A DNA stretch of 64,000 nucleotides from an uncultured Dokdonia sp. (GTDB lineage Bacteria > Bacteroidota > Bacteroidia > Flavobacteriales > Flavobacteriaceae), in NCBI RefSeq assembly GCF_947496725.1, contig NZ_CANMDS010000004.1, forward strand, positions 62,001 through 126,000. The letters run 5' to 3'. The translations under genes were made by a program, and so were the position numbers. Each line of letters begins with the position of its first letter. The first letter of the stretch is position 1. Under the pieces are notes generated by a model. That model saw only the letters and a program-made list of their open reading frames with translations. It did no database searches and was not told where the DNA came from. Shown here piece after piece: positions 1 through 63,723 of this stretch.

Positions 1-403
1 CCTCACCATTTACCTCTGTCATAGGTGTCTCTAGCGAGTGTCTGTATATAGTAGCTGTAGATGAGTTAAGCCACACCTGCGGCGGATTGCTGCACTGAGA
101 GATAGCCTTACCTATAATGGTTGTCGTGTCTACTCGTGAATTTAAAATTGCGTCTCTGTTCTTTTTGTGATAACGACAGTCTACAGATCTACCAGCCATA
201 TTTATGACTACATCTGTATCTTCAAATTCGTTTTTCCATCCTGCTACATTTTTTGCATCCCACAGTACTGTACGAACATTGTTAGAAGGTGCTTTTTGCT
301 TTCGCGAAAGCAAAACTATTTCCTCAAATTGATTTTGAAAGTGGTTAATAAGTATACTGCCTAAAAAGCCACTACCGCCAGCGATTATTAATTTTTTCAT
401 CAT
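1..403 (-). CDS. TIGR01777-type NAD(P)-dependent epimerase, N-terminal part (cut by the window edge)
   Basis: Reading the minus strand from the ATG pair at 398-403 gives an open frame to the window edge with no stop. The N-terminus carries a Rossmann glycine motif, GGSGFLGS (about residues 9-16), followed by a short-chain-dehydrogenase pattern with NSSTATIY near residue 115. This fits the YfcH/SDR39U1 (TIGR01777) epimerase group; the true substrate of that family is poorly known. The gene lies 3 nt after the small membrane-protein gene at 407-787, so the two are probably cotranscribed. A copy of the dispersed palindrome encodes LSRKQ at residues 32-36. Either ATG could be the start (403 or 400). 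The C-terminal half is outside the window. Confidence 0.8.
   Translation of the reverse strand, partial: MMKKLIIAGGSGFLGSILINHFQNQFEEIVLLSRKQKAPSNNVRTVLWDAKNVAGWKNEFEDTDVVINMAGRSVDCRYHKKNRDAILNSRVDTTTIIGKAISQCSNPPQVWLNSSTATIYRHSLETPMTEVNGE
298..311. repeat. Dispersed palindrome, perfect core (22-bp palindrome at 294-315)
   Basis: GCTTTCGCGAAAGC inside the epimerase gene, read as LSRKQ. The inverted symmetry extends 4 bp on each side with T/A pairs. Confidence 0.95.
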
Positions 404-406
404 TGC

Positions 407-787
407 CTAAATTGTTTTATTTGATACGATTGATATGTCTTTTTCTTGCGAGGTAAGTGTATACTCACTCTGCTTGTATGTGAGTATTAAAAAGTAGATA
501 CTTAGAGCAATGCCTAGTGTGATAGGAAGCCAAAACAAGAAGTCAAACGATGAGAAATAGTTTAAACATAAAAGAAGCGAAAGGCTCAAGACCGTTACAA
601 CTCCATATATTATAAAGTACTTCTTAAGATGGGGCGCTACGTCAGACCAGCGAAATAAGAGGTACACAAAGCAACATACTTGTATGGCTCCAGTTATGGG
701 CAGAAAAAGTAGACCGCCATAGACTGTTATAAATAAAATCGCATTAGTAATAATTAGAGTCTTGTTTATAAGGAATAGCGTTTTCAT
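407..787 (-). CDS. Small integral membrane protein of unknown function
   Basis: A 126-residue protein with four hydrophobic segments (about residues 8-28, 30-47, 60-78 and 84-103) and a short polar C-terminal tail. I do not recognise a family. It sits between the GbsR-type regulator gene, from which it is separated by a terminator-like hairpin, and the epimerase gene, which starts 3 nt after its stop. It therefore probably begins a two-gene transcript with the epimerase. It is likely a small inner-membrane protein. Confidence 0.65.
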   Translation of the reverse strand: MKTLFLINKTLIITNAILFITVYGGLLFLPITGAIQVCCFVYLLFRWSDVAPHLKKYFIIYGVVTVLSLSLLLCLNYFSSFDFLFWLPITLGIALSIYFLILTYKQSEYTLTSQEKDISIVSNKTI

Positions 788-823
788 AATATTTATATTT
801 CAGAAATTATTGAAACTTTTAGT

Positions 824-851
824 GAAATAAAAAGCACTTTCACAGTGCTCC
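824..851 (-). terminator. Rho-independent terminator of the GbsR-type regulator gene
   Basis: On the minus strand AGCACT and AGTGCT (833-849) form a 6-bp stem with a 5-nt loop, followed by TTTTATTT. It lies 23 nt after the regulator stop codon and separates that gene from the membrane-protein/epimerase pair. Confidence 0.65.
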
Positions 852-1462: not shown

Positions 1463-1466
1463 GATT

Positions 1467-2687
1467 ATGAATGTACTTGTAATCTCAACAGTTTGGGTAG
1501 AGCCCACTTCTTCGGCAGCAGGAAGTAGGATGTTACAGCTGCTTACTATTTTTAAAGAAAAAGGCTGGAATGTCACCTATGCAAGTACAGCCGGAACTTC
1601 TCAAAATGCAATCTCGCTAAGTGATTTTGATATTGAGACCGCAACGATACAGCTTAACGATGATTCTTTTAACGCTTTCGCGAAAGCGTACAACCCCACC
1701 ATCGTACTCTTTGATAGATTTATGGCAGAGGAGCAATTTGGCTGGCGAATAGACGAAGCGTGCCCCAATGCTCTAAAAATACTAGACACCGAAGATCTGC
1801 ACTGTCTAAGAAAAGCAAGAGCGCAAGCCGTAAAAGAAGAGCGAGTTTTTGAACCCAAGGACTTAATTTCTGATATCGCCAAAAGGGAGATAGCCTCCAT
1901 TTACAGATGTGATCTCACCTTGATGATCTCAACAGTAGAGATGGATTTGCTACAAACTTTTTTTAAAGTTCCTGCTTCATTATTGCACTATGTACCATTT
2001 CTAGTTTCTGCACTTGAGAGTGATTTTGTTCCTTTTAAAGAGCGAGCGCATTTTATAGCCATAGGCAATTTTATACACCCACCTAACTGGGATGCCACCC
2101 TAGAACTAAAAAAACATATTTGGCCACACATACGCCAGCAACTGCCGCAAGCAGAGATGCATATTTATGGCGCTTATGTGCCAGAGAAGGCATTACAGCT
2201 GCATAATCCCAAAGAGGGGTTTTTGGTAAAAGGAAGAGCAGAGAGCGCTCATCAGGTGATAAGAAATGCCAGAGTTTTACTAGCACCGCTTAGGTATGGG
2301 GCTGGCCTTAAAGGTAAATTTATAGATGCGATGCAATGTGGCACTCCATCTGTAACAACAGAGATAGGAGCAGAGGGAATGAGCCAGCACTTAGACTGGC
2401 CCGGTAGTGTAAATGATGATTATGATGCATTTATAAAAGCTGCAGTCTCCTTATATAGTAATGAGTCAAAATGGCAAAAAGCCCAAGAAAATGGCGTAAG
2501 GATAATTAATACCAATTTTCAAAAAGACAATTATGCCAGCCTGCTTACAGATACATTACAGCACCTGATGGATAATTTGATTATGCATCGTGCTGCAAAC
2601 TTTACAGGCCAGATGTTACAACATCACACAATGCGTAGCACACTATTTATGTCAAAATGGATAGCAGAAAAAAACAAAAAGGAGTAA
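1467..2687 (+). CDS. Glycosyltransferase, GT4-like (GT-B fold)
   Basis: A 406-residue protein with the GT-B pattern: an N-terminal Rossmann-like domain opening MNVLVISTVW, and a C-terminal donor-binding domain. The latter has IGNFIHPPNWDA (about residues 198-209) and the loop GLKGKFIDAMQCGTPSVTTEIG, in which the acidic position of the usual EX7E motif is partly changed. It probably transfers a sugar from a nucleotide-sugar donor in surface glycan or exopolysaccharide synthesis; the substrate cannot be told. The palindromic repeat encodes AFAKA at residues 70-74, in a probable surface loop. The stop codon lies inside a strong bidirectional terminator. Confidence 0.8.
   Translation: MNVLVISTVWVEPTSSAAGSRMLQLLTIFKEKGWNVTYASTAGTSQNAISLSDFDIETATIQLNDDSFNAFAKAYNPTIVLFDRFMAEEQFGWRIDEACPNALKILDTEDLHCLRKARAQAVKEERVFEPKDLISDIAKREIASIYRCDLTLMISTVEMDLLQTFFKVPASLLHYVPFLVSALESDFVPFKERAHFIAIGNFIHPPNWDATLELKKHIWPHIRQQLPQAEMHIYGAYVPEKALQLHNPKEGFLVKGRAESAHQVIRNARVLLAPLRYGAGLKGKFIDAMQCGTPSVTTEIGAEGMSQHLDWPGSVNDDYDAFIKAAVSLYSNESKWQKAQENGVRIINTNFQKDNYASLLTDTLQHLMDNLIMHRAANFTGQMLQHHTMRSTLFMSKWIAEKNKKE
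1674..1687. repeat. Dispersed palindrome, perfect core (18-bp palindrome at 1672-1689)
   Basis: Inside the glycosyltransferase gene, read in frame as AFAKA (residues 70-74). Confidence 0.95.
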
Positions 2688-5510: not shown

Positions 5511-6665
5511 TTATTGTGCGATTACTTTTATGCTTCCTTTTACCTTTTCGGCTACAGTTCTTGCTTTTTCTATATTGTGATCTACAATAGTTACGTGACC
5601 CATTTTTCTAAAAGGGCGCGTCTCTTTTTTACCATAAATATGAGGGGTTACCCCGTCCATACCCATTATATGCTCTATGTTCTCATATTTTACTTGGCCA
5701 GTATAGCCTTCATCTCCTACTAGATTTACCATTACAGAAGCAACTTTACTATCTGTATTGCCTAGTGGTAGATCTAAAATGGCTCTGAGGTGCTGCTCAA
5801 ACTGGTTTGTAAAACTTCCTTCTATACTGTAGTGACCACTATTGTGTGGTCTTGGAGCTACTTCATTTACAAGAATCTCATCATTTTCTGTCTGAAACAT
5901 TTCTACCGCAAGTAATCCCACGTGACCAAAAGCGTTAGAAACTCTCTCTGCAATATCTCGTGCTTTTTGAGCTACGGTCTCATCTATACGAGCTGGGCAT
6001 ATAACATACTCTACTTGGTTTGCCTCTGGATGAAACTCCATCTCTACCACAGGGTAGGTTTTAACCTCTCCAGATACATTGCGAGCTACTATTACGGCCA
6101 GCTCATTTTTAAATGGGATCATCTTTTCGGCTATGCAAGGTACTTCTGGTAAAGTGTCAAGGTCACTTGCGGTGCGCACTACAGATACTCCTTTGCCATC
6201 ATAGCCTCCTGTACAAGATTTCCAAATAAATGGTAGGTTGTCTAGCCATTGTGGAGATCCTTTTACCGCTTTCGCGAAAGCGTACTTCTCATAACTTGCC
6301 GTCGGGATGTTGTGCTTTTTATAAAAGTCCTTTTGTACACCTTTATCTTGTATGTTGCGTAAAACTGATGGTTGAGGATACACTTGTATGCCTTCCTTTT
6401 CTAACGTCTCTAGGGCATCGATGTTTACACTCTCTATCTCAAAGGTGAGTACATCTACCTTACGGCCAAATTTTACTACAGTATCATAGTCCATAAGACT
6501 ACCTTGTGTAAAATGGTTGCAGGCAATCTTGCAGGGAGCCTCATTGCTTGGGTCAAGTACGTAGGTCTGTATATCATACTTGCGGGTGTCGTAAAGCATC
6601 ATTTTACCTAGTTGACCACCACCTAAGATGCCTAATTTAAATTGAGAAGAGAAGTAATTTTTCAT
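5511..6665 (-). CDS. purK: N5-carboxyaminoimidazole ribonucleotide synthase PurK
   Basis: A 384-residue ATP-grasp enzyme that uses ATP and bicarbonate to carboxylate AIR. The N-terminal domain has LGILGGGQLGKMM (residues 12-24). The ATP-grasp part has KSCTGGYDGKGV (about 149-160) and NEVAPRPHNSGH, a PurK signature. The palindromic repeat encodes AFAKA at residues 129-133, between the linker and the ATP-grasp core. The 5' leader holds a degraded copy of the same palindrome, able to fold as a 7-bp hairpin just before the start codon. It is the first gene of purK-purE. Confidence 0.95.
   Translation of the reverse strand: MKNYFSSQFKLGILGGGQLGKMMLYDTRKYDIQTYVLDPSNEAPCKIACNHFTQGSLMDYDTVVKFGRKVDVLTFEIESVNIDALETLEKEGIQVYPQPSVLRNIQDKGVQKDFYKKHNIPTASYEKYAFAKAVKGSPQWLDNLPFIWKSCTGGYDGKGVSVVRTASDLDTLPEVPCIAEKMIPFKNELAVIVARNVSGEVKTYPVVEMEFHPEANQVEYVICPARIDETVAQKARDIAERVSNAFGHVGLLAVEMFQTENDEILVNEVAPRPHNSGHYSIEGSFTNQFEQHLRAILDLPLGNTDSKVASVMVNLVGDEGYTGQVKYENIEHIMGMDGVTPHIYGKKETRPFRKMGHVTIVDHNIEKARTVAEKVKGSIKVIAQ
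6268..6281. repeat. Dispersed palindrome, perfect core (16-bp palindrome at 6267-6282)
   Basis: Inside purK, read in frame as AFAKA (residues 129-133). Confidence 0.95.
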
Positions 6666-6674: not shown

Positions 6675-6688
6675 GTTTTCGCGAAAGC
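6675..6688. repeat. Dispersed palindrome, one half changed
   Basis: GTTTTCGCGAAAGC, 10-23 nt before the purK start codon. The GCGAAAGC half is intact. With its flanks, TTTTCGC and GCGAAAA pair around a GAAA loop (plus strand) or a TTTC loop (minus strand, the purK mRNA). Confidence 0.85.
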
Positions 6689-8973: not shown

Positions 8974-8987
8974 GCTCTCGCGAAAGC
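8974..8987. repeat. Dispersed palindrome, one base changed
   Basis: GCTCTCGCGAAAGC, 7 nt after the obg stop codon. The GCGAAAGC half and the flanking AC/GT are kept. No other terminator is visible after obg. Confidence 0.85.
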
Positions 8988-13851: not shown

Positions 13852-14823
13852 ATGATGAAAAAGTGGTTTATTATTCTATTGTTTCCTGTGGCGCTATGTG
13901 CTCAGAATGTGAGTGATAACGCTTTCGCGAAAGCGGAAAAACTTTTTAAACAGTCTCAGTACACCCTTGCACAGCCACTGTTTGTAAACTACCTGAAAAT
14001 ACATCCAGATGACCCTCAAACTCTAGAATATCTAGGAGATATAGAAGGCTATGCAAAAAACTGGGATGGAGCAATTCCTTATTACGAAAGCTTAGTAGAA
14101 AAGTATCCAAACAACGCAAACTACCATTATAAATATGGAGGTGTACTGGGTATGAAAGCTCTTGCTGTAAACAAGCTGAGAGCCGCTACAATGATAGGTG
14201 ACATAAAAGAGCAATTTGAAACAGCAGCCCGACTAGACCCATCTCATATAGATGCACGCTGGGCACTTGTAGAATTTTATATTCAAATACCAGGTATAAT
14301 AGGTGGTAGCGAGGCAAAGGCAAGAAAATATGCAGACCAGCTACTTGATATCTCAAAAGTAGATGGATATCTCGCTCACGGCTACATTGCAGAGTATAAT
14401 GGCAAGCCTAGTGTAGCAGAGTACAATTATAGAAAGGCTGTAGATGTAGGTGGTTCTGTCACTTGTTATACCAAGTTAAGAGAGCATTATGAGAAAAATA
14501 ATGAACCACAAAAAGCCTTTGAAACGGCTTATGAGGCGCAACAAAAACATTCTCAAGAGAACAGGTTACAGTACCAGCTAGGTAAGGTGGCCGGGCAGTA
14601 CGGTATAGGGCTTGATCAAGGTATTATGGGGTTGCATCATTACATAAAATACCACTCTGCGGCAGATGGCGTGCCTAAGGATTGGGCATATTTACGCCTT
14701 GCTCAAATCTACAAGCATAAAGGTGATAAAGAAAAAGCAGAGCAATGGATTAATAAGGCACTTGCTAGTAGGTCAGATTTTAAAGAGGCCTTACAAGAGC
14801 GCAAAGCTATTAGGAATTTATAA
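13852..14823 (+). CDS. Exported tetratricopeptide-repeat protein
   Basis: A 323-residue protein with a signal peptide ending LCAQ (about residue 18), then TPR-like helical pairs over most of its length (for example AEKLFKQSQYTLAQPLFVNYLKIHP and KGDKEKAEQWINKALASRSDFKEAL). It is probably a periplasmic or outer-membrane scaffold; no catalytic motif is visible. The palindromic repeat encodes AFAKA at residues 24-28, right after the predicted cleavage site. The start could be either of two adjacent ATGs (13852 or 13855). The gene is convergent with the M15 peptidase gene, the two stops being 2 nt apart. Confidence 0.8.
   Translation: MMKKWFIILLFPVALCAQNVSDNAFAKAEKLFKQSQYTLAQPLFVNYLKIHPDDPQTLEYLGDIEGYAKNWDGAIPYYESLVEKYPNNANYHYKYGGVLGMKALAVNKLRAATMIGDIKEQFETAARLDPSHIDARWALVEFYIQIPGIIGGSEAKARKYADQLLDISKVDGYLAHGYIAEYNGKPSVAEYNYRKAVDVGGSVTCYTKLREHYEKNNEPQKAFETAYEAQQKHSQENRLQYQLGKVAGQYGIGLDQGIMGLHHYIKYHSAADGVPKDWAYLRLAQIYKHKGDKEKAEQWINKALASRSDFKEALQERKAIRNL
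13921..13934. repeat. Dispersed palindrome, perfect core (16-bp palindrome at 13920-13935)
   Basis: Inside the TPR gene, read in frame as AFAKA (residues 24-28), a few residues after the signal peptide. Confidence 0.95.
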
Positions 14824-14825: not shown

Positions 14826-15563
14826 CTAAGGTAGCAGCGCAGGATTTATGTCACCTACATTTTCTTTAAGATAGCGATCTATAAAAGTGTCTGTAAAGTG
14901 CTCACTTCCTAGTAAGTTTGCAGCTTGTAATTGCGACTTTATATCCAGCGCTTGATATGCTTTGAGGTAGTCTAGAGAGAGTGCTTTATAGCTATAATGC
15001 CAGGGCTCATATTTAAAGCCTTTCCTGTCATACGTATCAGTGTAGACAAGGTAAAAGCCAAAACTATTTGCGTGTGCATCCATCCATTCTTTAAACTTAC
15101 AGAAGGGACCACTTCCGTGAAATTTTGACGGAACTAGTAATCCGCTAGTAACTCCTGGTGTGGCGTCTACAATATCTATATCTGTCCCCCAGTGATGCCT
15201 TGAGGTGCCAGGTATGGTAGAGTACTCAATAATTTTATTGATGGTTGCAAGGTGGCTTAGACCGCTTTCGCGAAAGCGTTTATACTTACGCTCCCATATT
15301 CTGTTTTGATGATTATAATCTCTGTAGCTTGATACTACTTGAAATTTTATACCATCTTTAAGAGCGGCAGTTTTCATCTCTTCAAAAGCGATGGCAGCTT
15401 CTGGTCTAAGTTTATAGGTTGAGGTTGTGGTGAGTTGTGGTGAGCCTTTACCTAGTAGCTCGTCTCTATCTATCATACCCAGTATTGCTGCCCTAGCCGT
15501 AAGTGGGAGAGAAGCTGCAAGTATACCTAGTACTGTGAGTTTCGAAAATGATCTTCTATTCAT
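14826..15563 (-). CDS. M15-family D-alanyl-D-alanine carboxypeptidase (VanY-like) with Tat-like signal
   Basis: A 245-residue zinc peptidase of the VanY/DdcY type that trims D-Ala from peptidoglycan stem peptides. The motif SRHHWGTDID (121-130) provides His123 and Asp130 as metal ligands, and EPWHY near residue 186 gives the catalytic Glu and third His. The N-terminus MNRRSFSKLTVLGILAASLP resembles a twin-arginine signal (RRSFSK), so it may be exported folded. The palindrome encodes RFRES at 96-100. Its start overlaps the stop of the double GNAT gene by 4 nt, showing translational coupling. Confidence 0.88.
   Translation of the reverse strand: MNRRSFSKLTVLGILAASLPLTARAAILGMIDRDELLGKGSPQLTTTSTYKLRPEAAIAFEEMKTAALKDGIKFQVVSSYRDYNHQNRIWERKYKRFRESGLSHLATINKIIEYSTIPGTSRHHWGTDIDIVDATPGVTSGLLVPSKFHGSGPFCKFKEWMDAHANSFGFYLVYTDTYDRKGFKYEPWHYSYKALSLDYLKAYQALDIKSQLQAANLLGSEHFTDTFIDRYLKENVGDINPALLP
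15264..15277. repeat. Dispersed palindrome, perfect core (16-bp palindrome at 15263-15278)
   Basis: Inside the M15 peptidase gene, read as RFRES (residues 96-100). Confidence 0.95.
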
Positions 15564-18044: not shown

Positions 18045-19049
18045 TTAGGGTAATAAGTAAAAGGTAATACAACCGCAAGAAGTACCTGTTCCCGTGCTTG
18101 TAACAAAATTAACTGAGCTTGCAGATATCTCACGATAAGCATTATTACCATTTATAGGGCTAGTGCTAGTAAATAAATAGTCAAAAGTTCCATCTAGATT
18201 ATCCTGCTCTACTACTGTGTGATTGCCTAGGTTTAAAGTACCTATATCATAAGGTACATTATCTAGTAATATTTCATAATTGTATGTCCCGGGAGCATTA
18301 GGCGCATTAAATTGTAATGCCCAGTAAAATGCATTGTTATCATTGAGCTGTATGTTTGTGAAGTCTCCCGTAGGAGTTCCGCTAGAAGTTAATGAGGTCA
18401 CGCCACTAGGGGGTGAGGTACTTCCAGATAAGGATACATCTGTAACAACTTCAATCTCTGCTGTGACATTAAAATACCAAACTTCCTCTACATAAACATC
18501 TGCAGTACCACCGTTATCACCAGTGCCTATATATACATCAAACCCGTTTGCAGTCTGTGTGCCTGTCACTACTTGTGCGATGCGACCGTCTCTGTTAGTT
18601 AAATCTTCTTGTATACCTAGAGTTATTGGGTATGATGCTCCATTAGGGTGTGGAGATGTAAATGCGACACTATATCTTCCAGTTGTTCCTGCAATTTTTG
18701 TCACAGTACAGTTAGTATTATAGTTATTTGTTCCATTTGCAGCTGTTTGAGCAGCAGCAAAGGAATAACCAATGGTTTGCTTGGTAACATTAAGAGTAGG
18801 AGTACTACTGTTATTTGACCCAAGGTCATTTGTACTTAGTAGACGTACCCATTGTGTAGTGTTTCTGTAGTAAATAGAGTCTAGATTATCGTCGTACATA
18901 ATAGTCCCCTCAAGAGGTGTTCCAGTAACATTAGAGGTTCCTACACCATCGTCGTGCTTAAGTTGTTGTAATAACTGGGCATCTACTGTTTGCGCTTTCG
19001 CGAAAGCGATAGAAAATATAACACCGAAAATATATAGGTAACTTTTCAT
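18045..19049 (-). CDS. Fibre-type surface protein, short stalk
   Basis: A 334-residue protein with signal peptide MKSYLYIFGVIFSIAFAKAQ, the palindrome encoding the AFAKA of the cleavage site (15-19). The N-terminal cap GTIMYDDNLDSIYYRNTTQW is of the VYNTD...YxYxxxxW type shared across this operon. A module at about 105-205 (RYSVAFTSPHPNGASYP, then NGFDVYIGTGDNGG) resembles the C-terminal end of the 3063-residue protein. A second beta domain closes the protein with CGCITFYLL. No T9SS sorting domain is visible. It is the fourth gene of the operon. Similar caps occur in tail-fibre-like proteins of Bacteroidetes; function is not known. Confidence 0.7.
   Translation of the reverse strand: MKSYLYIFGVIFSIAFAKAQTVDAQLLQQLKHDDGVGTSNVTGTPLEGTIMYDDNLDSIYYRNTTQWVRLLSTNDLGSNNSSTPTLNVTKQTIGYSFAAAQTAANGTNNYNTNCTVTKIAGTTGRYSVAFTSPHPNGASYPITLGIQEDLTNRDGRIAQVVTGTQTANGFDVYIGTGDNGGTADVYVEEVWYFNVTAEIEVVTDVSLSGSTSPPSGVTSLTSSGTPTGDFTNIQLNDNNAFYWALQFNAPNAPGTYNYEILLDNVPYDIGTLNLGNHTVVEQDNLDGTFDYLFTSTSPINGNNAYREISASSVNFVTSTGTGTSCGCITFYLLP
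18994..19007. repeat. Dispersed palindrome, perfect core (16-bp palindrome at 18993-19008)
   Basis: Encodes AFAKA (15-19) at the end of the signal peptide of the 334-residue fibre protein. Confidence 0.95.
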
Positions 19050-19063: not shown

Positions 19064-19795
19064 TTATTTATAAGCCGTGTATAATACGAGTAGTGCTTCA
19101 TTATTTACATCTCCAGGTTGAACATCTACTAGAACGTTTGTACTATTTGCGGTCACTATACCATCTGTATAATTTACTGTAACAATAAAGCCATCTGTAG
19201 TAAATTCTTTAAAAGCAGCTTCTATCTTACCTAGGCTATTTCCGTTTTGATCGCTATAGCGCACACCTATACAATTACTGCTACTGGCATATCTTGATAT
19301 ATCGTTTATAGAATTTCCGTGACCTCCAGAAAACATTGCCTGTTGAGTTATAGAACTAGCAGCATCTTCTCTTGCAAAACCTTTCATTGTGCCAAAGGAG
19401 TTATCAATCCCTCTATCATTATCACCCACACCATTGTCAGAATCTAAATCGCGGCTCTCCACATTTGCAGACGCCGAAAATGTGACTTGCGATGGTTTAA
19501 AAGGTATGTTGTCTACTGTCACATCACCCTCTCCAGAGATGATAAACCATCCAGTGTATATATTCTTCTCTGTAAGAAGTTCCAAAAACCCATTATTTGT
19601 ATATTCGAAAATCCTATTTTCATCTGTATTATAAACCAGCATACCAATCTCTAAATCTGCCGGATCGTATGCGTCAATTTCTAACTGTGATGCCTTCTGC
19701 ACATTAACTAAATATGCAGGGTCTGTGGTTTGCGCTTTCGCGAAAGCGTAAACAAAAACAAGAAGTATAGTTAAATATAAAGGGTTGTTTTTCAT
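19064..19795 (-). CDS. Fibre-type surface protein, almost no stalk
   Basis: A 243-residue protein made of a signal peptide (MKNNPLYLTILLVFVYAFAKAQ), an N-terminal cap ([33 protein letters not shown]) and a C-terminal head of about 160 residues starting YTGWFIISGEG. Cap and head are both clearly homologous to those of the collagen-like protein upstream; here they are joined with nothing between. Head landmarks are PFKPSQVTFSA, FGTMKGFAR, ISRYASSSNCIGVRYS and the ending VLYTAY. The palindrome encodes AFAKA (17-21) at the cleavage site. It is the third gene of the operon. I know no function for this head. Confidence 0.75.
   Translation of the reverse strand: MKNNPLYLTILLVFVYAFAKAQTTDPAYLVNVQKASQLEIDAYDPADLEIGMLVYNTDENRIFEYTNNGFLELLTEKNIYTGWFIISGEGDVTVDNIPFKPSQVTFSASANVESRDLDSDNGVGDNDRGIDNSFGTMKGFAREDAASSITQQAMFSGGHGNSINDISRYASSSNCIGVRYSDQNGNSLGKIEAAFKEFTTDGFIVTVNYTDGIVTANSTNVLVDVQPGDVNNEALLVLYTAYK
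19734..19747. repeat. Dispersed palindrome, perfect core (16-bp palindrome at 19733-19748)
   Basis: Encodes AFAKA (17-21) at the end of the signal peptide of the 243-residue fibre protein. Confidence 0.95.
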
Positions 19796-19801: not shown

Positions 19802-21292
19802 TTATTCGTAGGCTGTAAATAATACAATAACAGACTCATCAAGTATGTCATCACTAAAAGCAGTACCTCCTATTGTTCCTATGGTATAAGTTACATTAAG
19901 ATTAAAACCTGTAGCTGTAAAGCTCGCTAGAGATGCTGAGATAACACCTAGATTGTTACCGTTATTATTAGTATACCTTAAGCCTATGCACTGTGTATCA
20001 TTAGCATATCTAGATATGTTATTAATAGAGCTACCACTTCCGCCAGAAAATATAACCGCTTGTGCAATAGGACTGCCTGCTCGAGCAAATCCATTCATTG
20101 CGCCAAAGGTGTTTTCAAGCAATCCAGTATTATTTGCTCCTAGCGCATTATCATCATTAATGTTAAACGCCCCTATATTAGGATGCGCCTTAAAAGTAAC
20201 TTGCGAAGGCTCAAAAGGGATGCCTGATATACTCTGGCTATATGTTCCAGTGGTGGTTAATGTGCTGTTGTCTATAATAAAAAATCCGGTGTATGTTCCT
20301 GATGGTCCTACGGGTCCCTGGGGTCCTTCTACTCCTTGAGCGCCTGTGGGTCCAGCTGGTCCTTGAGGTCCTACAGGGCCTTGTGCTCCAGTAGGTCCAG
20401 CAGGTCCAGTTGCGCCATCTGCTCCGGTTGCACCAGTAGATCCCTGTGGTCCAGCATCTCCTTGCGGGCCAGTGGCACCTGTCGCTCCGTCTGCACCAGC
20501 TGGCCCTTGCGGTCCTGTAGCGCCAGTCGCACCGTCAGCTCCTTTTGGACCTATTGGTCCTTGTGGCCCAGTTGCGCCTGTTGCTCCGTCTGCACCTGCT
20601 GGTCCTTGTGGTCCCTGCGGTCCAATTGCACCTGTTGCTCCATCTGCACCTGCCGGTCCAATCGCTCCAGTTGCTCCGTCTGCACCTGCAGGTCCCTGTG
20701 GTCCAGTTGCACCTGTTGCTCCGTCTGCACCTGCCGGTCCTTGCGGTCCAATTGCTCCAGTTGCTCCATCTGCACCTGCCGGTCCTTGTGGTCCAGTTGC
20801 ACCCGTTGCTCCGTCTGCACCTGCCGGTCCTTGCGGTCCAGTTGCGCCCGTTGCACCATCTGCACCTGCTGGTCCCTGCGGTCCAGTTGCGCCTGTAGCT
20901 CCATCTGCACCTGCTGGTCCCTGCGGTCCAGTTGCACCTGTTGCTCCGTCAGCCCCTGCTGGTCCTTGTGGACCTACAATTCCTACAGTGACAGCGGTGT
21001 TATTTTCATTTGTGTACGTAGCCGTGCCATTACCATTATCTACAAAAGTAGTTACTGTTTCAGATACATCGACATCGGTTAGTATTACTAAAAAGCCTGA
21101 TGTCGTATATTCAAATATTCTATTTACATCTGTATTGTATACTAGCATACCTATTTCTAGATCTGCCGGGTCATAGGCATCAATTTCTGATTGCGACGCT
21201 TTTTGCACATTTATTAAATATGCAGGGTCTGTGGTTTGCGCTTTCGCGAAAGCGTAAAAACTTAAGAGAATTATAAAAATTGCTTTTTTCAT
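19802..21292 (-). CDS. Collagen-like fibre protein
   Basis: A 496-residue protein: signal peptide [20 protein letters not shown]-terminal cap ([13 protein letters not shown]); a short [15 protein letters not shown] element like those of the giant neighbour; about 75 Gly-X-Y triplets (roughly residues 108-333), mostly the 15-residue unit [15 protein letters not shown]; and a C-terminal head of about 160 residues ([44 protein letters not shown]). Collagen stalk plus globular head is the architecture of trimeric bacterial collagens and phage tail fibres, so a trimeric surface fibre is likely (inference). No T9SS sorting domain is visible. It is second in the operon, 15 nt after the giant gene. 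Confidence 0.85.
20293..20971 (-). repeat. 45-bp tandem repeats encoding the collagen-like stalk
   Basis: Tandem 45-bp units, each encoding about five Gly-X-Y triplets. Copies differ at a few third positions, and one part is shortened ([13 protein letters not shown]). GC is clearly higher than in the flanks because of Gly, Pro and Ala codons. Confidence 0.9.
21240..21253. repeat. Dispersed palindrome, perfect core (16-bp palindrome at 21239-21254)
   Basis: Encodes AFAKA (14-18) at the end of the signal peptide of the collagen-like protein. Confidence 0.95.
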
Positions 21293-30921: not shown

Positions 30922-30926
30922 CAAAG

Positions 30927-30957: not shown

Positions 30958-30962
30958 TATTT

Positions 30963-30976
30963 TATTTCGCGAAAGC
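30963..30976. repeat. Dispersed palindrome, one half changed
   Basis: TATTTCGCGAAAGC between the tRNA terminator and the pepE stop codon. The GCGAAAGC half is intact. Confidence 0.8.
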
Positions 30977-33406: not shown

Positions 33407-33420
33407 GCTTTCGCGAAAGC
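33407..33420. repeat. Dispersed palindrome, perfect core (22-bp palindrome at 33403-33424)
   Basis: Intergenic, 33 nt after one stop codon and 25 nt before the next start. It could form a hairpin in the read-through mRNA. Confidence 0.95.
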
Positions 33421-36513: not shown

Positions 36514-36527
36514 GCTTTCGCGAAAGC
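36514..36527. repeat. Dispersed palindrome, perfect core (24-bp palindrome at 36509-36532)
   Basis: Intergenic, between convergent genes, about 53 nt beyond the end of the minus-strand beta-barrel gene. This is the longest symmetric copy in the window. Confidence 0.95.
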
Positions 36528-39570: not shown

Positions 39571-39584
39571 GCTTTCGCGAAAGC
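39571..39584. repeat. Dispersed palindrome, perfect 14-bp core
   Basis: Intergenic, between the small lipoprotein gene and the end of the esterase gene. Confidence 0.95.
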
Positions 39585-41542: not shown

Positions 41543-41701
41543 AGCCTATTCTTTGTGATTAGTATTTCTTACGTCAATATTAGACTATTAATGTACAACA
41601 ATTACAATTCTCAAAAAAAATATGGTTACAGTGATTATAAGTATAATATTCTTTAGAAATGAAATAAAATGTAAGGCTGTAAAGTGCTATATTTAAGCCT
41701 T

Positions 41702-42415
41702 ATGCAAGAAAAAAGTGCCGCAGATATATCTTCATATATATCAATAAAAAATTGGTCTGAAGATGACCGACCTCGAGAGAAATTAATGATTAAAGGTCGC
41801 TCTGTCCTTTCAGATGCAGAGCTTATAGCGATACTTATAGGCTCTGGCTCCCGAGAAGAGAGTGCCGTATCCCTTAGTAAACGCATTCTTGCACAAGCCG
41901 AAAATAACTTGTCTGAACTAGGTAAGCTTTCGGTTAAGGATTTAATGAAGTTTAAAGGAATAGGCGAGGCAAAGGCAGTCACTATCGCAGCGGCACTAGA
42001 GCTGGGTAGAAGACGTAGCGGTGGAGAGACGCTTTCGCGAAAGCGTATTACTTCCTCAAAAGATGCATATACCATCTTACAACCCATTATAGGTGAGTTG
42101 CCTCACGAAGAATTCTGGGTGTTGTTTCTTAATAATTCTAATAAAGTTTTACGCAAGGAGCAAGTAAGTAAAGGAGGTCTTACAGGCACGCTAGTAGATG
42201 TGCGTATGGTAATGAAAACCGCCATAGAGCTCAGTGCTGTAGGGATGATACTAGGGCATAATCACCCATCTGGAACGCTTAAGCCCTCTCAGGCAGATAA
42301 GATGCTCACTACAAAGTTAAAAACCGCTGCTCAAAGCTTAGATATACAAGTATTAGACCATATTATTGTGACCGAAAAGCAGTATTTTAGCTTTGCCGAT
42401 GATGGTATTCTATAA
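41702..42415 (+). CDS. radC: RadC-family JAB-domain protein
   Basis: A 237-residue RadC protein. A helix-hairpin-helix region (about 60-95, FKGIGEAKAVTIAAALELGRR) is followed by the JAB/MPN metalloprotease-like domain with LGHNHPSGTLKPSQAD (about 184-199), the JAMM metal site. The name RadC is historical and its repair role is doubted. A GTG six codons upstream (41684) is also in frame, but TATATTTA at 41688-41695 looks like the -7 element, so the ATG at 41702 is chosen. The palindrome encodes LSRKR (111-115), between the two domains. Confidence 0.92.
   Translation: MQEKSAADISSYISIKNWSEDDRPREKLMIKGRSVLSDAELIAILIGSGSREESAVSLSKRILAQAENNLSELGKLSVKDLMKFKGIGEAKAVTIAAALELGRRRSGGETLSRKRITSSKDAYTILQPIIGELPHEEFWVLFLNNSNKVLRKEQVSKGGLTGTLVDVRMVMKTAIELSAVGMILGHNHPSGTLKPSQADKMLTTKLKTAAQSLDIQVLDHIIVTEKQYFSFADDGIL
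42031..42044. repeat. Dispersed palindrome, perfect core (18-bp palindrome at 42029-42046)
   Basis: Inside radC, read as LSRKR (residues 111-115), in the linker between the HhH and JAB domains. Confidence 0.95.
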
Positions 42416-42429: not shown

Positions 42430-43713
42430 ATGTTACTCGTTTACACCCATAAAATTACCCCGCGAGTCTCTTATGTTTTCAAGCATATTTGTACCCGTGT
42501 CCTTGGGATTCCTGTAAAGTTTACTAGCAAACTAGAAGAGTTTATTGCACACGAGGGAGCAAAACTGTCTTACACCTCAAAAAAGCTAGGTAATGAATTA
42601 CATATACGTAGTGTAGACTTGCTTTTTGAGCAAGGTATACTAGCTATGGATATTGCCGTACAAGACTGGGATGGTGTGCCTTGCTTTTTTCAAATTAAAG
42701 ATGCCACAGCACAAGTGCCTTATGATATTTTTGCTGCAACTTTTTATTTGCTTAGTAGGTATGAAGAGTATTTGCCACACGTAAAAGATAGTCTAGGTCG
42801 CTTTCCAGCAAGCGAGAGTATTGCTGGTGTACACGATTTTCTAGAACAGCCAGTTGTAGATATCTGGATACAAAGATTTGCAGAGGTGCTCGCTATGCAA
42901 TTTCCTAACCTAGCTATACAATCTACTACCTATAAAGCACATATGCTTGTGACAGTTCCGCAGGCATTTAAATATAAAAAGCTTGGAGTATTGCGTGCTG
43001 TGGGTGGGTACTTTAAGGATTTTGGGAAATTACGCTTTCGCGAAATTTTAAAACGCACTCAAGTCCTTCTCGGGACGAGAAAAGATCCTTACGACAGCTT
43101 TGGCTGGCTTGCAAACGTGCAAAAACAAAGTGCTATTCCGTTTCAAATTTTTTTTCAAATAGGTGATTACGGTCAGACAGCAAAAAATATCAAACACTCA
43201 AAGCGTAGTTTTCAAAGCACCATAAAGATGATAGGTGACTATTGCAGTGTGGGGCTCTTACTATCGCCACAAGCTGCAACAGATAGGCAAGTACTTGCAG
43301 TAGAGCGTAAACGTCTTCAAGAAATCATACATAGACCTATGAGAAGTATGCACGTCTCAGATTTTAAACTCAATTTACCGTATGTGTATAGAGATGCACT
43401 AGACCAAGAGATACAAAGTGACTATACAATGGGCTATGCAAATACCACTGGTTTTAGAGCGGGAACCTCTCTGTCATTCTTGTTTTATGATCTGGACTAC
43501 GAGATACAAACGCCATTACTCATACATCCTGTATGTATGCAATCTGATAATGTGATTAATTACAAAAATCACACTATAGATTTTGTAAACCTCAAAGAAC
43601 TAAGTGACCGAATTAAAACCGTAAACGGTGTGTTTAGAATTTCATTTTCAAATCATTCCTTTGACGATATTTATAGTAAAAAACTTTTTAGACACCTTAT
43701 AACAGATGAGTAA
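42430..43713 (+). CDS. Polysaccharide-deacetylase-like protein (DUF7033 type)
   Basis: A 427-residue protein of the Bacteroidetes group with an N-terminal DUF7033-like domain (MLLVYTHKITPRVSYVFKHI, YDIFAATFYLLSRYEEYLPH) and a C-terminal polysaccharide-deacetylase-like barrel (FQIFFQIGDYGQTAKNIKH, TTGFRAGTS). The usual catalytic and metal-binding His/Asp set is not obvious, so activity is uncertain. No signal peptide is visible. A half-degraded palindrome encodes RFREI (202-206). It begins 14 nt after radC and overlaps the nucleotidase gene by 8 nt, so radC and these two genes form one transcript. Confidence 0.8.
   Translation: MLLVYTHKITPRVSYVFKHICTRVLGIPVKFTSKLEEFIAHEGAKLSYTSKKLGNELHIRSVDLLFEQGILAMDIAVQDWDGVPCFFQIKDATAQVPYDIFAATFYLLSRYEEYLPHVKDSLGRFPASESIAGVHDFLEQPVVDIWIQRFAEVLAMQFPNLAIQSTTYKAHMLVTVPQAFKYKKLGVLRAVGGYFKDFGKLRFREILKRTQVLLGTRKDPYDSFGWLANVQKQSAIPFQIFFQIGDYGQTAKNIKHSKRSFQSTIKMIGDYCSVGLLLSPQAATDRQVLAVERKRLQEIIHRPMRSMHVSDFKLNLPYVYRDALDQEIQSDYTMGYANTTGFRAGTSLSFLFYDLDYEIQTPLLIHPVCMQSDNVINYKNHTIDFVNLKELSDRIKTVNGVFRISFSNHSFDDIYSKKLFRHLITDE
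43034..43047. repeat. Dispersed palindrome, right half changed
   Basis: GCTTTCGCGAAATT inside the deacetylase-like gene, read as RFREI. The left half GCTTTCGC, which is GCGAAAGC on the other strand, is intact. Confidence 0.85.
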
Positions 43714-47203: not shown

Positions 47204-50200
47204 TGAAGCAATTATACACACTACTTATAAGTATACTTATACTGTCTTGTGGGGATAAGACAGAACAAACTATATTAAAAGAAACTAGTCCTTCAAAAGT
47301 CATAAAGACTAAGGATGTAAAGATTTTTGAACAAATCTCTAGTGACTCCAGTGGTATCACTTTTTCAAACACTCTTAAAGAAGATGTAGGTTCTCTAGCA
47401 AACCTATTTGATTTTGACTATTTCTATAATGGAGCAGGCGTAGGAGTAGCAGATGTTAATAATGACGGACTTCAAGATTTATTTTTTACAGGTAACCAGG
47501 TGCCTAACAAATTGTATCTCAACAAAGGTAATTTACAGTTTGAAGATATTTCAGATGCCGCAGGTATTAATGTAGGTAAACAATGGGCAAACGGTGTCAC
47601 ATTTGCAGATGTAAATAATGACGGCCTCATAGATATTTACGTATCACAGGGAGGACCTAAGCAAGCACAAGAGCGTGGTAACTTGTTATATATAAATGAG
47701 GGTGAAAACCGCTTTCGCGAAAGCGCAAAACAATACAACATTTCAGATACGGGCATAAGCACGCAATCTTCGTTTTTTGACTTTGATAAGGATGGAGATC
47801 TTGATCTTGTTGTGTCAAATGAAAACGAACTTTATGGACTAGACCCGCAACGATTTTTTGCAAGTATGAAGATTCGTAAAAATCTTGAAAAAAGCAGTGT
47901 ACAACTTTACGAAAATACGGGCAACACGTTTAAGAATGTAACAGAAAGTGCTGGATTGCTCAAACCGGCATTTGGACTAGGCCTCGTAGTAAGTGATATA
48001 AATAACGATGGCTGGCTAGACCTCTATATTGCAAATGATTATTATGTGCCAGATGCGATGTACATAAATAACCAAGACGGCACTTTTACAGATAAAATAA
48101 AAGAACAGACCGCACAAGTCTCATTTTATGGAATGGGGGTAGACATTGCAGATATTAACAATGATATGCTGCAAGATATATTTGTACTAGATATGGCGGC
48201 CAGTGATCACGTGCGCTCTAAAACGCTTATGGCAAGTATGAATGAGCAGCGTTTTAATATGCTTACAGAAGATATGGGTTTCCAGCATCAGTATATGTTT
48301 AACTCACTACAGCTTAACCGTGGTAATGGTAGGTTTGATAACGTAGTGCATCAAGCACATATGGCTAAGACAGACTGGAGCTGGGCGGGACTTATAGCAG
48401 ATCTTGATAACGATGCAGATCGTGATGTTTATGTTACAAATGGATATAGAAGATATGCCCTTGATAATGATTTACAAAATCAGGTAAGAGACACGCAGCG
48501 CGCTTTTAATGGTACTGTGCCTCTTGATGTAAAGCAAAAGTTATATGATGCAATGCCTACAGAAAAGCTTAGTAATATTGCCTTTGTAAACAATGGAGAT
48601 TTAGACTTTAAAAATAACTCCTACCAGTGGGGTCTAGCTGTGGCTTCTTATTCTAACGGTGGTGCTTATGCAGATCTTGATAATGATGGTGACCTTGAAC
48701 TTATAACTAATAATATAGATGATACCGCTTTTCTCTTTAAGAATACCTCTGTAGAAAATAAGCTAGGTAATTTCATAAAAATTAAAACAAAAGGAACGCT
48801 TTCAGAAGACTTTGCAAAGGTGACTGTTATTACAAAAAATGGTACACAAGTAGCCGAGAATAAAAGGACAAGAGGATACCTTTCGGCAGTAGAGGAGGGT
48901 GCTCACTTTGGTTTAGGCACTGTAGAGAATGTAGATAAAGTGATTGTACAGTGGCTCTCTGGAAAACGTAGTGAGTTTACAGATATAAAAGCAAACCAGA
49001 CACTTGTTGTAAAAGAAAACGAAGCAACACTTACTGGGCTTCCTGTTATCGATACAAAAGAGCCTATGTACGCTTTCGCGAAAGCAAAAAATGACTTAGG
49101 CATAGATTTTAGTCACAAGGAAAATACCTTTAACGATTTTACAAAGGAAGTATTATTGCCTTATAAGCAATCACAACTAGGCCCTTTTATATCAAAAGGA
49201 GATGCAAATAATGATGGTCTTGAAGACTTGTTTATAGGAGGTGCTTCAGGACAAGCGGGAGCGTTATACATACAATCAACAACTGGATTTAATAAGATAT
49301 CACAGCCTGCATTAGATAAAGACAAGGCTTATGAAGATATGGAATCATTATTTGTAGATGTAGATGGTGATGGAGACCAAGATCTTATCGTAGTAAGTGG
49401 AGGTAATGAATTTGCCAAACAAGATGCGCTATTAGAAAATAGGCTGTATCTAAATGATGGTGCTGGTAATTATGATAAGGCAGCTTTTGATCAGACCGGG
49501 AATAACCGTTTTGTTTATAGTAAAAGTATTGCTGCAATAGATTTTGACCAAGATGGTGATCAAGATATTGTAATAGGTAATCGTATTGAGCAGGGGCAGT
49601 TTCCTGTTAGTGCCTCTTCTGTGCTTTATCGTAACGATAGAGGTGTGTTTACAGATGTAACTGTAGATGTGGCGCCAGATTTATTAGATTTTGGTATAAT
49701 AAACGATGTGCTTACTACAGATTATGATAATGATGGAAAAGAAGATTTACTTATAGTAGGAGAGTGGTCACCTATAGGATTACTTAAAAATATAGGAGGG
49801 CATTTTGTACGTCAAAGTCTTCCGGAACTTGACGAAAATCTAGGTTTATGGTTTACTGCTGTGGAGACAGATGTAAATAATGATGGAATAAAAGATTATG
49901 TGATAGGAAATATAGGAGAGAACACTAAGTATAAGGCCTCAAAGAAAAAACCATTTAAGGTCTTTGCAAATGATTTTGATAATAATGGCACCTTTGATCT
50001 TGTACTCAGTAATGAATATAACGGTAGTTATGTGCCCGCAAGAGGTAGAGAGTGTAGCTCACAGCAAATGCCTTTTATTTTAGATAAGTTTGCTACCTAC
50101 TCAGATTTTGCAAATGCAACACTAGATGATATATATGGAGATGCATTAAAAGAAGCCTACACAAAAGAAGTAAATACATTTTCTTCCATACTACTTATAG

Positions 50201-51922: not shown

Positions 51923-52699
51923 ATGGAGAGTGAGTCGTCTTATTTTAAGTTTTATAATGGAGTAGTGGGGTACCCCTTGCTGTTTGTGCTCATTATCTGG
52001 TTTGTGTTTTGGATAGAGATCAAGTTTGGTTTAGATTTTACGCGCTGGGGAGTACGACCTAGAACAGGGATGGGTTTACGAGGTGTGCTTTTCTCACCCT
52101 TTATACATAGCGGGATAAAACACTTATGGCATAATACCACCCCATTGCTGGTACTTAGTACTGCACTGTTTTATTTTTATAGAAATATCTCGTGGAAGGT
52201 TTTATTATGGATTACCATTTTGAGCGGTTTGGGTACCTGGCTTATAGGCAGGACGTCGTATCACATCGGGATGAGTGGTGTGATTTATGCGCTCGTATCA
52301 TTTTTATTTTTCAAAGGAATAATAGCGAAGCATTATAGGCTTGTTGCTTTGTCGCTTGTAGTTGTATTTCTTTATGGCAGTCTAATTTGGGGGACAATGC
52401 CTACCAGTGAGAATATATCGTGGGAGGGACATCTTTCAGGTTTTATAGCTGGGGCATTTATTGCTTTACGCTTTCGCGAAAGCGTACCTAACCCTATAAA
52501 ATATGCTTGGGAACAGCCAGATTACAAAGAAGAAGATGATCTATTTATGCGTCAGTTTGATGAAGACGGTAACTTTTTTGAACTACCCCCAGAGCCTACC
52601 GTAAATACGGAGGCTGATACTTACACCATCGTTTATCATTATATAACACAAGATGACGAGAAGATTAAGGGTGATAATGCTTATAAAGACGAATTATAA
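51923..52699 (+). CDS. Rhomboid-family intramembrane serine protease
   Basis: A 258-residue integral membrane protein with six hydrophobic segments. The catalytic dyad is Ser118 in GMSG (116-119) and His170 in EGHLSG. The HSGIKHLWHN motif before the second helix fits the family. It should cleave membrane helices of unknown substrates in the inner membrane. The cytoplasmic tail (about 185-258) is acidic. The palindrome encodes RFRES (183-187), just after the last helix. The stop overlaps the rlmB stop by 6 nt, convergently. Confidence 0.9.
   Translation: MESESSYFKFYNGVVGYPLLFVLIIWFVFWIEIKFGLDFTRWGVRPRTGMGLRGVLFSPFIHSGIKHLWHNTTPLLVLSTALFYFYRNISWKVLLWITILSGLGTWLIGRTSYHIGMSGVIYALVSFLFFKGIIAKHYRLVALSLVVVFLYGSLIWGTMPTSENISWEGHLSGFIAGAFIALRFRESVPNPIKYAWEQPDYKEEDDLFMRQFDEDGNFFELPPEPTVNTEADTYTIVYHYITQDDEKIKGDNAYKDEL
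52470..52483. repeat. Dispersed palindrome, perfect core (20-bp palindrome at 52467-52486)
   Basis: Inside the rhomboid gene, read as RFRES (183-187), at the membrane-to-cytoplasm junction. Confidence 0.95.
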
Positions 52700-61910: not shown

Positions 61911-61939
61911 TTTTATAAATTATTTGAATTAGCCAATGC

Positions 61940-61970
61940 CAAAAATCACAATAAAAAGTTAATTACACAA
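61940..61970 (-). promoter_or_regulatory. Tentative promoter of the SusC operon
   Basis: The minus strand has TTG (61968-61970), a 20-nt spacer and GATTTTTG (61940-61947), one mismatch from TAnnTTTG, 29 nt before the start codon. Confidence 0.35.
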
Positions 61971-62031
61971 CTAATAGTTGCTAAAATTTAGTTTTTTTTT
62001 AACGCTTTGTAAATCGTGTTAATCCCCTTAT

Positions 62032-63723
62032 TTAAAAGCGTACAGCGAGAATTAGGTGCAGTTTTGTGTTTGAGAAGTCGAACGAAGAATTGTTAAATTT
62101 TCCATTTGCAATATTTATTTTAAGGACCCCTGCCTTGGTTTGTATTCCTGCTCCCGCACCTACACTAAGCAAGTAGTTGTTGTTATTGTCTAAGGCGTTT
62201 TCAATATAGCCTCCATCCAGTACTGTGTTGATGTATAGGCTGTTGCCTACTTGTATGCGGTACTCTGTATTGACTGCAATGGCAAGATTTGCAAAGAGAC
62301 TGTTTTCTTCAAACCCGCGTATCGATGTAATTCCGCCAAGTCTAAAAAGTTCATTTGTAAGGTAGGTTTTAGAAAATAAATTGTTAAAAATCCCAGAAAC
62401 ATAGATTGAGTTTTTAGCATCAAAATTGAAAATCTTTTTAATATTTAATAAAATTTTCGTCTGAGGTGTTTTTGTCATATTCGCAATTCTTGATCCGTGG
62501 TCTATGACTATTGTCGATTGCGTCGAAATTGGGAAAAATATACTCTTTTGGCGTTTTAGGTAGGTGTGTTCTAGTTGAAGGGAGGACGTTTTGTAGTTGT
62601 TTAGGTTGTTTTGGTTCGTTATCGAGTTGAGTAAGTTGTCAGAAGTTGTAGAGTTGTATCCTGCTGCAATTTTGTGTTGAGTGCTTGGTTTATAAAATAC
62701 CTGTAAGTTGGTTTGCGTAGTTGAGAATGTGCTGTCTTTTCTAAAGATGGATAAGGAGGCTTCTATGCCTACTGGTGTTTTAAAAAGATAAGGAAGTGCG
62801 GTTCTGATTTTGAGTTGTGATTGATCCTCACCATCAGATTTGTAATTAAGTGATATCTCCTCGCCGTAGTTAAAGTTGTTTAAGAGTTGTAGATTGAGAT
62901 AGCCATCTAGTCTAAGTGTGTTGTTGTTATTTGAGGCAAAACCTAAAAATCCGTCAAACTGGTTTTGGTTTGTCTTTTCTATGTAATAAAATATTGTGGT
63001 GCTGTCTTTTTTGAATAAAGCTTCTGGTGTTCTTGTTGTGTTGAGGAATCGTAAAGTGCTTATTTCATTGTTTACGGTTTCAACTCGCTCTTGGTTGTAA
63101 GGTTTGAGGAGTAGTTTTTTGCTTAGGCTTTGTAGATATGTTTTTGGGTATTTCTCATATCCTTTATATATAACGCTTGTTATGGCTCTTTCTTTTTCTG
63201 AAATTAATGTTAGTTCTCCGGTGAGCTGGTCGTTTGCTTTCTTAATGTTGGTTATTTGAAAAGTAGCAAATGGATTTCCGTTGTTTGATGCGATTGTCGT
63301 GAGCTGTTTGAGTAGCGCTTTCGCGAAAGCGGTTTCAATCTTTATTGAGTTGCTGGCTATTGTGTAGGATGTCTCCTTTATATATGTCTCTAGTTTTGTG
63401 TTATTGTCTTGAGGAATTGTTAAGAGAATGTGTTTGTATTTTTTGCCTAGGCTGATATATGCCGTCAGGTTGTTATTGTTGAATGTTGTTTTGGTTTTTA
63501 AATCAATGTACCCTTGGTTAGTGAGTTTTTTTTCTATCTGTTGTATTTCTAGGTAGGCTCTTGATGTTTCGTTAAAGGTTTTTAGGTGTTCAATAGATTT
63601 TAGAGTGAGTTTGTCTTGAGGGTTGTGGCTGGTGATGTTTAAAGTTATTTGCGATTTGTCTTTTTGGGCATTTGTGCAAATGCTGAAGATTAATGATAAT
63701 ATAAGGAGTAGATATGTCTTCAA
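62032..63723 (-). CDS. Omp85-like outer-membrane protein (BamA/TamA family)
   Basis: A 563-residue protein with a signal peptide (MKTYLLLILSLIFSICTNAQ). The N-terminal 240 residues carry one or two POTRA-like modules (SVIYKGYEKYPKTYLQSLSKK). The C-terminal barrel has the Omp85 loop motif SIRGFEENS and a final strand ending LHLILAVRF. It is too short to be the main BamA and may assemble or export particular surface proteins. The palindrome encodes AFAKA (132-136). It is transcribed away from rpsL. Confidence 0.8.
   Translation of the reverse strand: MKTYLLLILSLIFSICTNAQKDKSQITLNITSHNPQDKLTLKSIEHLKTFNETSRAYLEIQQIEKKLTNQGYIDLKTKTTFNNNNLTAYISLGKKYKHILLTIPQDNNTKLETYIKETSYTIASNSIKIETAFAKALLKQLTTIASNNGNPFATFQITNIKKANDQLTGELTLISEKERAITSVIYKGYEKYPKTYLQSLSKKLLLKPYNQERVETVNNEISTLRFLNTTRTPEALFKKDSTTIFYYIEKTNQNQFDGFLGFASNNNNTLRLDGYLNLQLLNNFNYGEEISLNYKSDGEDQSQLKIRTALPYLFKTPVGIEASLSIFRKDSTFSTTQTNLQVFYKPSTQHKIAAGYNSTTSDNLLNSITNQNNLNNYKTSSLQLEHTYLKRQKSIFFPISTQSTIVIDHGSRIANMTKTPQTKILLNIKKIFNFDAKNSIYVSGIFNNLFSKTYLTNELFRLGGITSIRGFEENSLFANLAIAVNTEYRIQVGNSLYINTVLDGGYIENALDNNNNYLLSVGAGAGIQTKAGVLKINIANGKFNNSSFDFSNTKLHLILAVRF
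63317..63330. repeat. Dispersed palindrome, perfect core (16-bp palindrome at 63316-63331)
   Basis: Inside the Omp85-like gene, read as AFAKA (132-136). Confidence 0.95.

Follow-up and report, generated by a model that had tools for sequence, protein, structure and literature searches.

The window analysed here is a 64,000-nucleotide stretch of DNA from an uncultured Dokdonia sp. (NZ_CANMDS010000004.1, positions 62,001 to 126,000), and the element in question is a perfect 14-bp palindrome, GCTTTCGCGAAAGC, that recurs along its length. An earlier sequence-only reading of the window had placed 16 exact copies in it, all of which are present where it put them; as full palindromes they are assigned no strand. 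Genes were called with a home-made mechanical caller. The first copy lies at the window edge (298..311), and those at 1674..1687 and 6268..6281 fall within coding sequences (CDSs) 1467-2687 and 5511-6665, both in the AFAKA frame. CDS 13852-14823 carries a site at 13921..13934 (AFAKA, residue about 24) and CDS 14826-15563 one at 15264..15277 in the FRES frame. Three sites, at 18994..19007, 19734..19747 and 21240..21253, are found near the starts of CDSs 18045-19049, 19064-19795 and 19802-21292, respectively, each in the AFAKA frame. The copies at 33407..33420 (before the window gene at 34003), 36514..36527 and 39571..39584 are intergenic, and that at 42031..42044 is read in the LSRK frame of CDS 41702-42415 as called (mechanical open reading frame (ORF) 41684-42415). 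CDS 47203-50550 holds two, at 47711..47724 (FRES) and 49072..49085 (AFAKA). The copy at 52470..52483 is intergenic according to the gene caller and is spanned by ORF 51923-52699 in the mechanical list, and the last, at 63317..63330, falls within CDS 62032-63723 (AFAKA).

Four degraded copies that had also been noticed are real, two with one mismatch (6675 and 8974) and two with two (30963 and 43034). With up to two mismatches allowed, 0.14 occurrences are expected by chance per 64 kb and none of 100 shuffles reached 20. Three of the four belong to a regular class that keeps the 10-bp core whole but lacks the GC of one end: the plus-strand site at 6675..6688 has GT in place of the left GC with TTTCGCGAAAGC intact, the plus-strand site at 30963..30976 has TA in place of the left GC and lies about 40 bp past a tRNA-Gly (30849-30976 region), and the minus-strand site at 43034..43047 has TT in place of the right GC. 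The fourth, at 8974..8987, has a single mismatch inside the core (GCTCTCGCGAAAGC) and no strand.

The sequence-only reading had proposed a genome-wide address, naming enrichment confined to the window as the contrary outcome. The 3.29-Mb genome contains 905 copies, about one per 3.6 kb, and none of a reversed-order control; the window is thus not the sole enriched region, and the proposal is supported. A contiguous 400 kb of contig C1 of this genome holds 120 copies where a third-order Markov model expects 0.0006 (a fifth-order model gives 2.5, a value inflated by the palindrome itself), and beside these 120 exact copies there are only four one-mismatch relatives. The copies are also evenly placed. 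The coefficient of variation (CV) of the C1 gaps is 0.50 against 0.99 for random placement, no value as low was obtained in 5000 random placements, and no gap is shorter than 500 bp where 16.7 are expected. Spacing within the window is less even than in C1 (CV 0.81, 15 gaps). In a second Dokdonia genome, G016, 2 of 112 sampled gaps are below 500 bp (minimum 197), and 20 stretches of 20 kb around the chromosome, on which origin and terminus were not located, contain 3-9 copies each. About 2 Mb of carrier DNA was sampled in all, from genomes that are partly drafts, and part of the G016 sample was selected around one-sided sites.

The palindrome is built from two halves, and each half comprises TTTCGCGAAA as its core, GC(G) at the end and an arm of about 25 nt that is G-poor on the outward strand. 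In C1 the core occurs 132 times, 120 with GC at both ends, 12 with GC at one and none with GC at neither; a lone core without GC at either end was noted among the G016 samples (L250, G016:C1:2086001-2106000). Past the GC, the outward consensus reads G, T, A, A at frequencies of 0.92, 0.62, 0.75 and 0.65. The extended symmetry described earlier holds as a consensus, TTAC...GTAA, but not as a property of single sites, since perfect symmetry exceeds one extra base per side at 61 of 136 sites and four at only 4. In the arms, G on the outward strand is mostly at 2-10% (maximum 16%) to about +25, and the background of 19% is regained by about +30; the strand that enters the site in the 5' to 3' direction is G/T-rich and C-poor. 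The 16 full sites of the window have 77 G among 768 outward positions from +2 to +25. Arms are found within genes (outward G 9-10% to either side, whichever of the three frames is used) as well as between them (6%), and in G016, other Dokdonia and the genus g26, while in the genus g206 (11 sites) a weak effect extends no further than about +9. Flanks vary between genera: GCGTA is the form in Dokdonia, and g26 has more GCGGA, its second flank base being more often G than T (15 sites). Across 40 positions, pairing between the left and right arms of the same site is nowhere in excess (largest z 1.9), and a long hairpin formed by the arms was rejected.

These dimensions bear on the idea that the palindrome is a site like HIP1 that is kept by an orphan methyltransferase acting on the internal CGCG or TCGCGA. 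The core does contain TCGCGA, and HIP1 is tied to orphan methyltransferases in the available part of PMC4390886, which counts for the idea. We nevertheless consider it improbable: 132 of the 156 TCGCGA hexamers in C1 fall within the core, which means that it is not the hexamer by itself that is enriched, and 14 conserved base pairs with arms and an orientation rule (described below) are more than an enzyme site of 4-8 bp requires.

Among the 136 sites, 74 lie in genes and 62 between them, although intergenic DNA makes up 11-13% of the sequence. The earlier statement that the palindrome is not tied to a gene type is correct, then, but it overlooked this over-use of intergenic DNA. Sites in genes are read in the AFAKA frame in 46 cases and in the FRES and LSRK frames in 14 each; 21 of the 74 are no more than 100 bp away from the called start of the gene, where many give the impression of forming the end of a signal peptide, and 2 in the final 100 bp. 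Intergenic sites are flanked by tandem genes in 37 cases, by convergent and divergent genes in 12 each, and by an undefined arrangement in one. Overall, the sites look as if they occupy tolerant places, between genes and near gene starts. A mobile repeat, of the repetitive extragenic palindrome (REP) or miniature inverted-repeat transposable element (MITE) kind, or a transcription terminator would account for the palindromic form and for the 62 intergenic sites. Either is very improbable, as the sites in genes use all three frames, the intergenic ones are not concentrated between convergent genes (12/62), and arms accompany sites both in genes and between them. In 11 alignments with a clearly site-free partner, small gaps but no clean insert of the site were seen, and the miniature mobile repeat offered by the sequence-only reading is abandoned on these grounds. 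The site at 33407 has an aligned counterpart in 12 further Dokdonia genomes, although the flanks aligned with it are 66-88% identical. Sites are thus retained even at flank identities as low as 66-73%, and other sites have been gained and lost between Dokdonia genomes.

The one-sided sites make the palindrome look directional. Sites without the left base C number 111 in G016, 96 in G003 and 223 in G005, and orientation was analysed for 100 of the 111, 50 of the 96 and 191 of the 223, respectively. Neighbouring one-sided sites less than 3 kb apart are in excess in G016 (19 pairs, 9.2 expected) and G005 (49 pairs, 34 expected, P 0.001), and they mostly face opposite ways (16/19, p 0.004, and 43/49, p 6e-8). 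At larger distances opposite and equal orientations are balanced, with 14 of 28 pairs opposite at 10-30 kb in G016 and 60 of 119 at 6 kb or more in G005. When the pairs of both genomes below 1 kb are combined, the intact halves point outward in 14 of 18 (p 4e-6 against one in four). The intact side also keeps more of its arm, with 10.7% G against 14.4% on the other side (p 5e-5; 135 one-sided sites, some of them mutually orthologous). This arrangement suggests that each half acts on the DNA of its own side over at least 1 kb, and that the palindrome would be two such halves back to back. Within genes, one-sided sites are oriented 34 to 16 relative to the gene, probably a codon effect, which in operons favours equal and not opposite orientation. 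Replication polarity was rejected, both orientations being mixed along G016 among the 100 of 111 sites listed, as was the origin of close outward pairs by insertion of an element into a palindrome, for which no shared inner ends were seen; some of these pairs sit within one uninterrupted ORF. One-sided sites with varying end bases also recur 2.4-3.3 kb before the conserved intergenic site in several relatives.

Directional halves are what a recombination signal of the Chi type would provide, and this is the main rival to the uptake-type reading developed below. A half met from one side would switch a helicase-nuclease that had entered at a break (AddAB), so that the DNA beyond is spared and recombined, and the palindrome would be two divergent signals that cover both directions. 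We hold this to be possible, if doubtful. It predicts directional halves needed both ways, as the arrangement in the two genomes suggests, and the strand entering the site is G/T-rich and C-poor at the place where a Chi-type enzyme would load RecA, a protein that favours GT-rich DNA. AddAB-type proteins of the PDDEXK_1 family are present in 31 of 31 genomes searched, and sites with arms on some virus contigs would also fit. RecC was found in none of the 31, which removes RecBCD as the reader. As a yardstick, 350 kb of Escherichia coli contain 105 Chi sites that are randomly spaced (CV 1.01) and have no such arms; there are 762 one-mismatch 8-mers for these 105, a comparison with the 14-mer that is not like for like because an 8-mer has many chance neighbours. 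To our knowledge, a signal of 12-14 nt exceeds the length of any known Chi, and this too counts against the idea. In AddB, no residue is fixed in the 11 carriers and absent from the 9 non-carriers, and one position among the 20 proteins is fixed in non-carriers only. In 15 of the 20 genomes read (L292-L311), two ORFs of about 397-401 and 449-478 aa lie between the two AddAB-type genes, and in g26 the AddB gene is located elsewhere.

The same arrangement could serve chromosome architecture, with a putative dimeric protein bound about every 3 kb as an anchor or, in the manner of CTCF, as a one-way barrier to an SMC motor. A long palindrome with arms, spread evenly and uniformly around the chromosome, would suit such a protein, and so would the orientation rule with its outward close pairs. 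We rate this as unlikely: the 20 stretches of G016, in which origin and terminus were not located, reveal no uneven zone, and no binding protein turned up in searches for the RecC, PDDEXK_1, T2SSE and DUF5689 families, which did not cover ParB-like proteins.

Among the genomes drawn, high copy numbers are limited to few lineages. All 18 Dokdonia genomes carry 369-905 copies, and none of the 21 other genomes in the same draw carries any. Among 397 genomes drawn from the family, at least 400 copies were counted in six, 1-19 in 74 and none in 317; the six are two Dokdonia, all three g26 genomes and the one g206 genome, and so represent three genera. The sample from outside the family consisted of 15 genomes belonging to the order. 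No full copy is present in four Leeuwenhoekiella loci, each about 22 kb long, and two of these have one core each, yet marker protein identity is 71-73% for Leeuwenhoekiella and only 61-62% for the motif-bearing g26. In the best AddB tree the carriers are not one group (three changes; a single change in 0% of 200 bootstrap trees), whereas its strongly supported branches alone are compatible with a single origin. The trait thus looks patchy across genera, and the reader of the signal may have moved between them or been lost often.

Other dialects were sought in six non-carrier genomes (40-60 kb each), and no comparable 10- to 12-mer was found; G133 and G110 have moderately enriched 8-mers, for example TTCAGAAA and CTTCGGAA, and the top ranks of G207 and G246 are filled by repeated sequence. 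A literature search that excluded most subscription journals, in which the motif may be in print, gave no match for the 12-mer CTTTCGCGAAAG and matches unrelated by title for TTTCGCGAAA, and none of the Dokdonia papers listed for palindromes or for genome sequences with methyltransferases was about the motif judging by its title or the start of its abstract. A further palindrome in the window, TGCTGCAGCA, is its second most frequent of 10 bp. Nine of its ten copies lie inside a giant ORF (21308-30589, 3093 aa) with a periodic DNA repeat at 22600-27250, in which CTGCAG occurs mostly every 69-174 bp, and it is therefore ascribed to a repeat protein and not to a genome signal.

Purity of the sites varies among carriers. 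One-mismatch and perfect cores number 7 and 361 in the G000 and G016 samples, 9 and 72 in other Dokdonia, 5 and 41 in g26, and 1 and 20 in g206. Non-carriers (an 84-kb island in G108 and stretches of G083 and G119) have 8 and 33, an excess of mismatches with p 2e-5 against G000 and G016 and p 8e-4 against all carriers pooled (494 perfect, 22 mismatched). These counts make it likely, although not proven, that sites decay without the system. The G108 island (contig C3, about 31-115 kb; L312-L317) is a large mobile island with a near-carrier density of palindromes. Its Pfam matches include a Strawberry-notch helicase and N6 methylases, and it has what we take to be metal-efflux-like genes and, at one end, a presumed serine-recombinase-like ORF. 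A spacing of 933 bp between sites recurs in G108, G318, G110, G119, G133 and G246, and G083 shares others, for example 4330 and 5254 bp; given these shared spacings and the density, an island of the G108 type probably came from a carrier host. In a scan of viruses, at least 15 contigs (35-48% GC) had more than one palindrome, G-poor arms being present in most cases; the contigs include L030/L047/L052, L051/L055/L121, L060, L084/L115 and L094, several being evidently near copies of one another. At least 96 single-copy virus matches have a mean GC of 0.55 and look mostly chance-like.

Taken together, we tentatively read the palindrome as a self-DNA signal that resembles uptake sequences, is spread over the whole genome and has halves that each act as an arrow. 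Placement that is even, mostly pure, limited to lineages and tolerated by proteins has the look of uptake sequences under molecular drive. The relatively even distribution of the uptake signal sequence (USS) of Haemophilus influenzae is expected from drive, and the spacing of the Neisseria DNA uptake sequence (DUS) matches conversion tracts, according to the available parts of PMC7811141 and PMC2397512, respectively. In the proposed mechanism, a putative DNA-import and recombination machine would bind a half with its arm and import or process the DNA on that side, such that a palindrome would serve both flanks and a half-site one. Fragments with a good site would be imported and converted back more often, and this would let the motif spread and stay pure by molecular drive, so that each imported tract (~3 kb) would have roughly one working site in either direction. 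A candidate reader is the unusual transformation machinery described in Flavobacteriaceae. In Riemerella, which the authors assign to this family, the transformation proteins are unlike known uptake machinery and DUF5689 is a domain of an essential one, as stated in the available part of PMC8459023. R. columbina prefers its own DNA, and the k-mer count presented in the accessible portion of that paper found only A-rich 10-mers (PMC7965970). DUF5689 was detected in 27 of 29 genomes tested, including that of the window, in carriers and non-carriers alike. Of the options raised by the sequence-only reading, a DNA-uptake-type site is the best candidate, and a nucleoid-type site is still a possible one.

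Several observations weigh against this interpretation. In an uptake sequence the orientation of a copy would be irrelevant, whereas the one-sided copies of G016 and G005 follow an orientation rule. We know of no directional uptake sequence, and the competence of Dokdonia is itself putative. In Neisseria, one DUS copy is enough whatever its arrangement, and transferred regions contain few DUS (PMC2397512, available part). The direction of the halves depends on two genomes, G005 and G016, in which the outward preference has gone at 1-3 kb (12 outward and 20 inward in G005, 7 and 4 in G016); the lone G003 pair below 3 kb faces the same way (3/4 opposite below 4 kb, 50 of 96 sites listed), and C1 of the window genome has two pairs below 3 kb, one of them opposite. 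A DUF5689 tree did not group the carriers, although the choice of ORF, incorrect for G011 (79 aa) and doubtful for G043, makes it a weak test. T2SSE (PilB-type) gave matches over the cut-off in 5 of the 15 carriers, with none in the window genome, and in 3 of the 16 non-carriers, in a search that did not extend to minor pilins. No gene of the RecC, PDDEXK_1, T2SSE and DUF5689 families, the only ones tested, tracks the carrier distribution. When only the carriers other than G000 and G016 are used for comparison (133 perfect, 15 mismatched), non-carriers show no significant decay (p 0.11), and mobile islands and some virus contigs bear real sites with arms.

On balance, Dokdonia and the two further genera may write an arrow code, a divergent pair of half-signals about every 3 kb in which each half would mark the DNA of its own side as self for a putative DNA-translocating machine active in import, repair or defence; we put this forward with the same reserve as the uptake-type reading. 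We know of no earlier code of this kind in the Bacteroidota, and the strand-specific G-poor arm would, if the proposal is right, be a new kind of recognition element. An uptake-type signal would offer a natural test case for self/foreign discrimination by an unusual transformation system, and its directional halves would be evidence that signals of this type can be polar. Were it instead Chi-like or architectural, the signal would be far more orderly than those known. Because the sequence by itself suffices to recognise the sites, moving them one at a time in this culturable marine genus would put their function to the test. Some probability beyond the readings discussed is left to something unnamed.

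Compared with known systems, the palindrome shares with USS and DUS its great abundance, its restriction to a clade, its even spacing and its flank extension, as well as its occurrence in both coding and non-coding DNA and flank variants between genera that resemble dialects. It differs from them in being palindromic, with two divergent halves and one-sided copies under an orientation rule, and in having strand-specific G-poor arms. USS occurs about once per kb (PMC7811141, available part), the palindrome about once per 3.6 kb, and while type IV pilus machinery with a sequence-reading minor pilin would be expected for such a sequence, 10 of 15 carriers lack a PilB-type ATPase over the cut-off. 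With Chi the palindrome has in common a directional logic, kilobase spacing and a strand rich in G and T where RecA would be loaded, whereas Chi of E. coli is randomly spaced, armless and much shorter. HIP1 (GCGATCGC) is likewise a highly repeated palindrome across one lineage, and the earlier comparison with it is fair for abundance; it does not extend to the length, arms and directional halves of the Dokdonia palindrome (HIP1 itself was not measured). The Noc/ParB and MatP/SlmA sites are long palindromes bound by a chromosome protein, those of Noc and MatP being unevenly distributed. The Dokdonia palindrome, in contrast, is present in about 900 copies with no uneven zone seen around the G016 chromosome.

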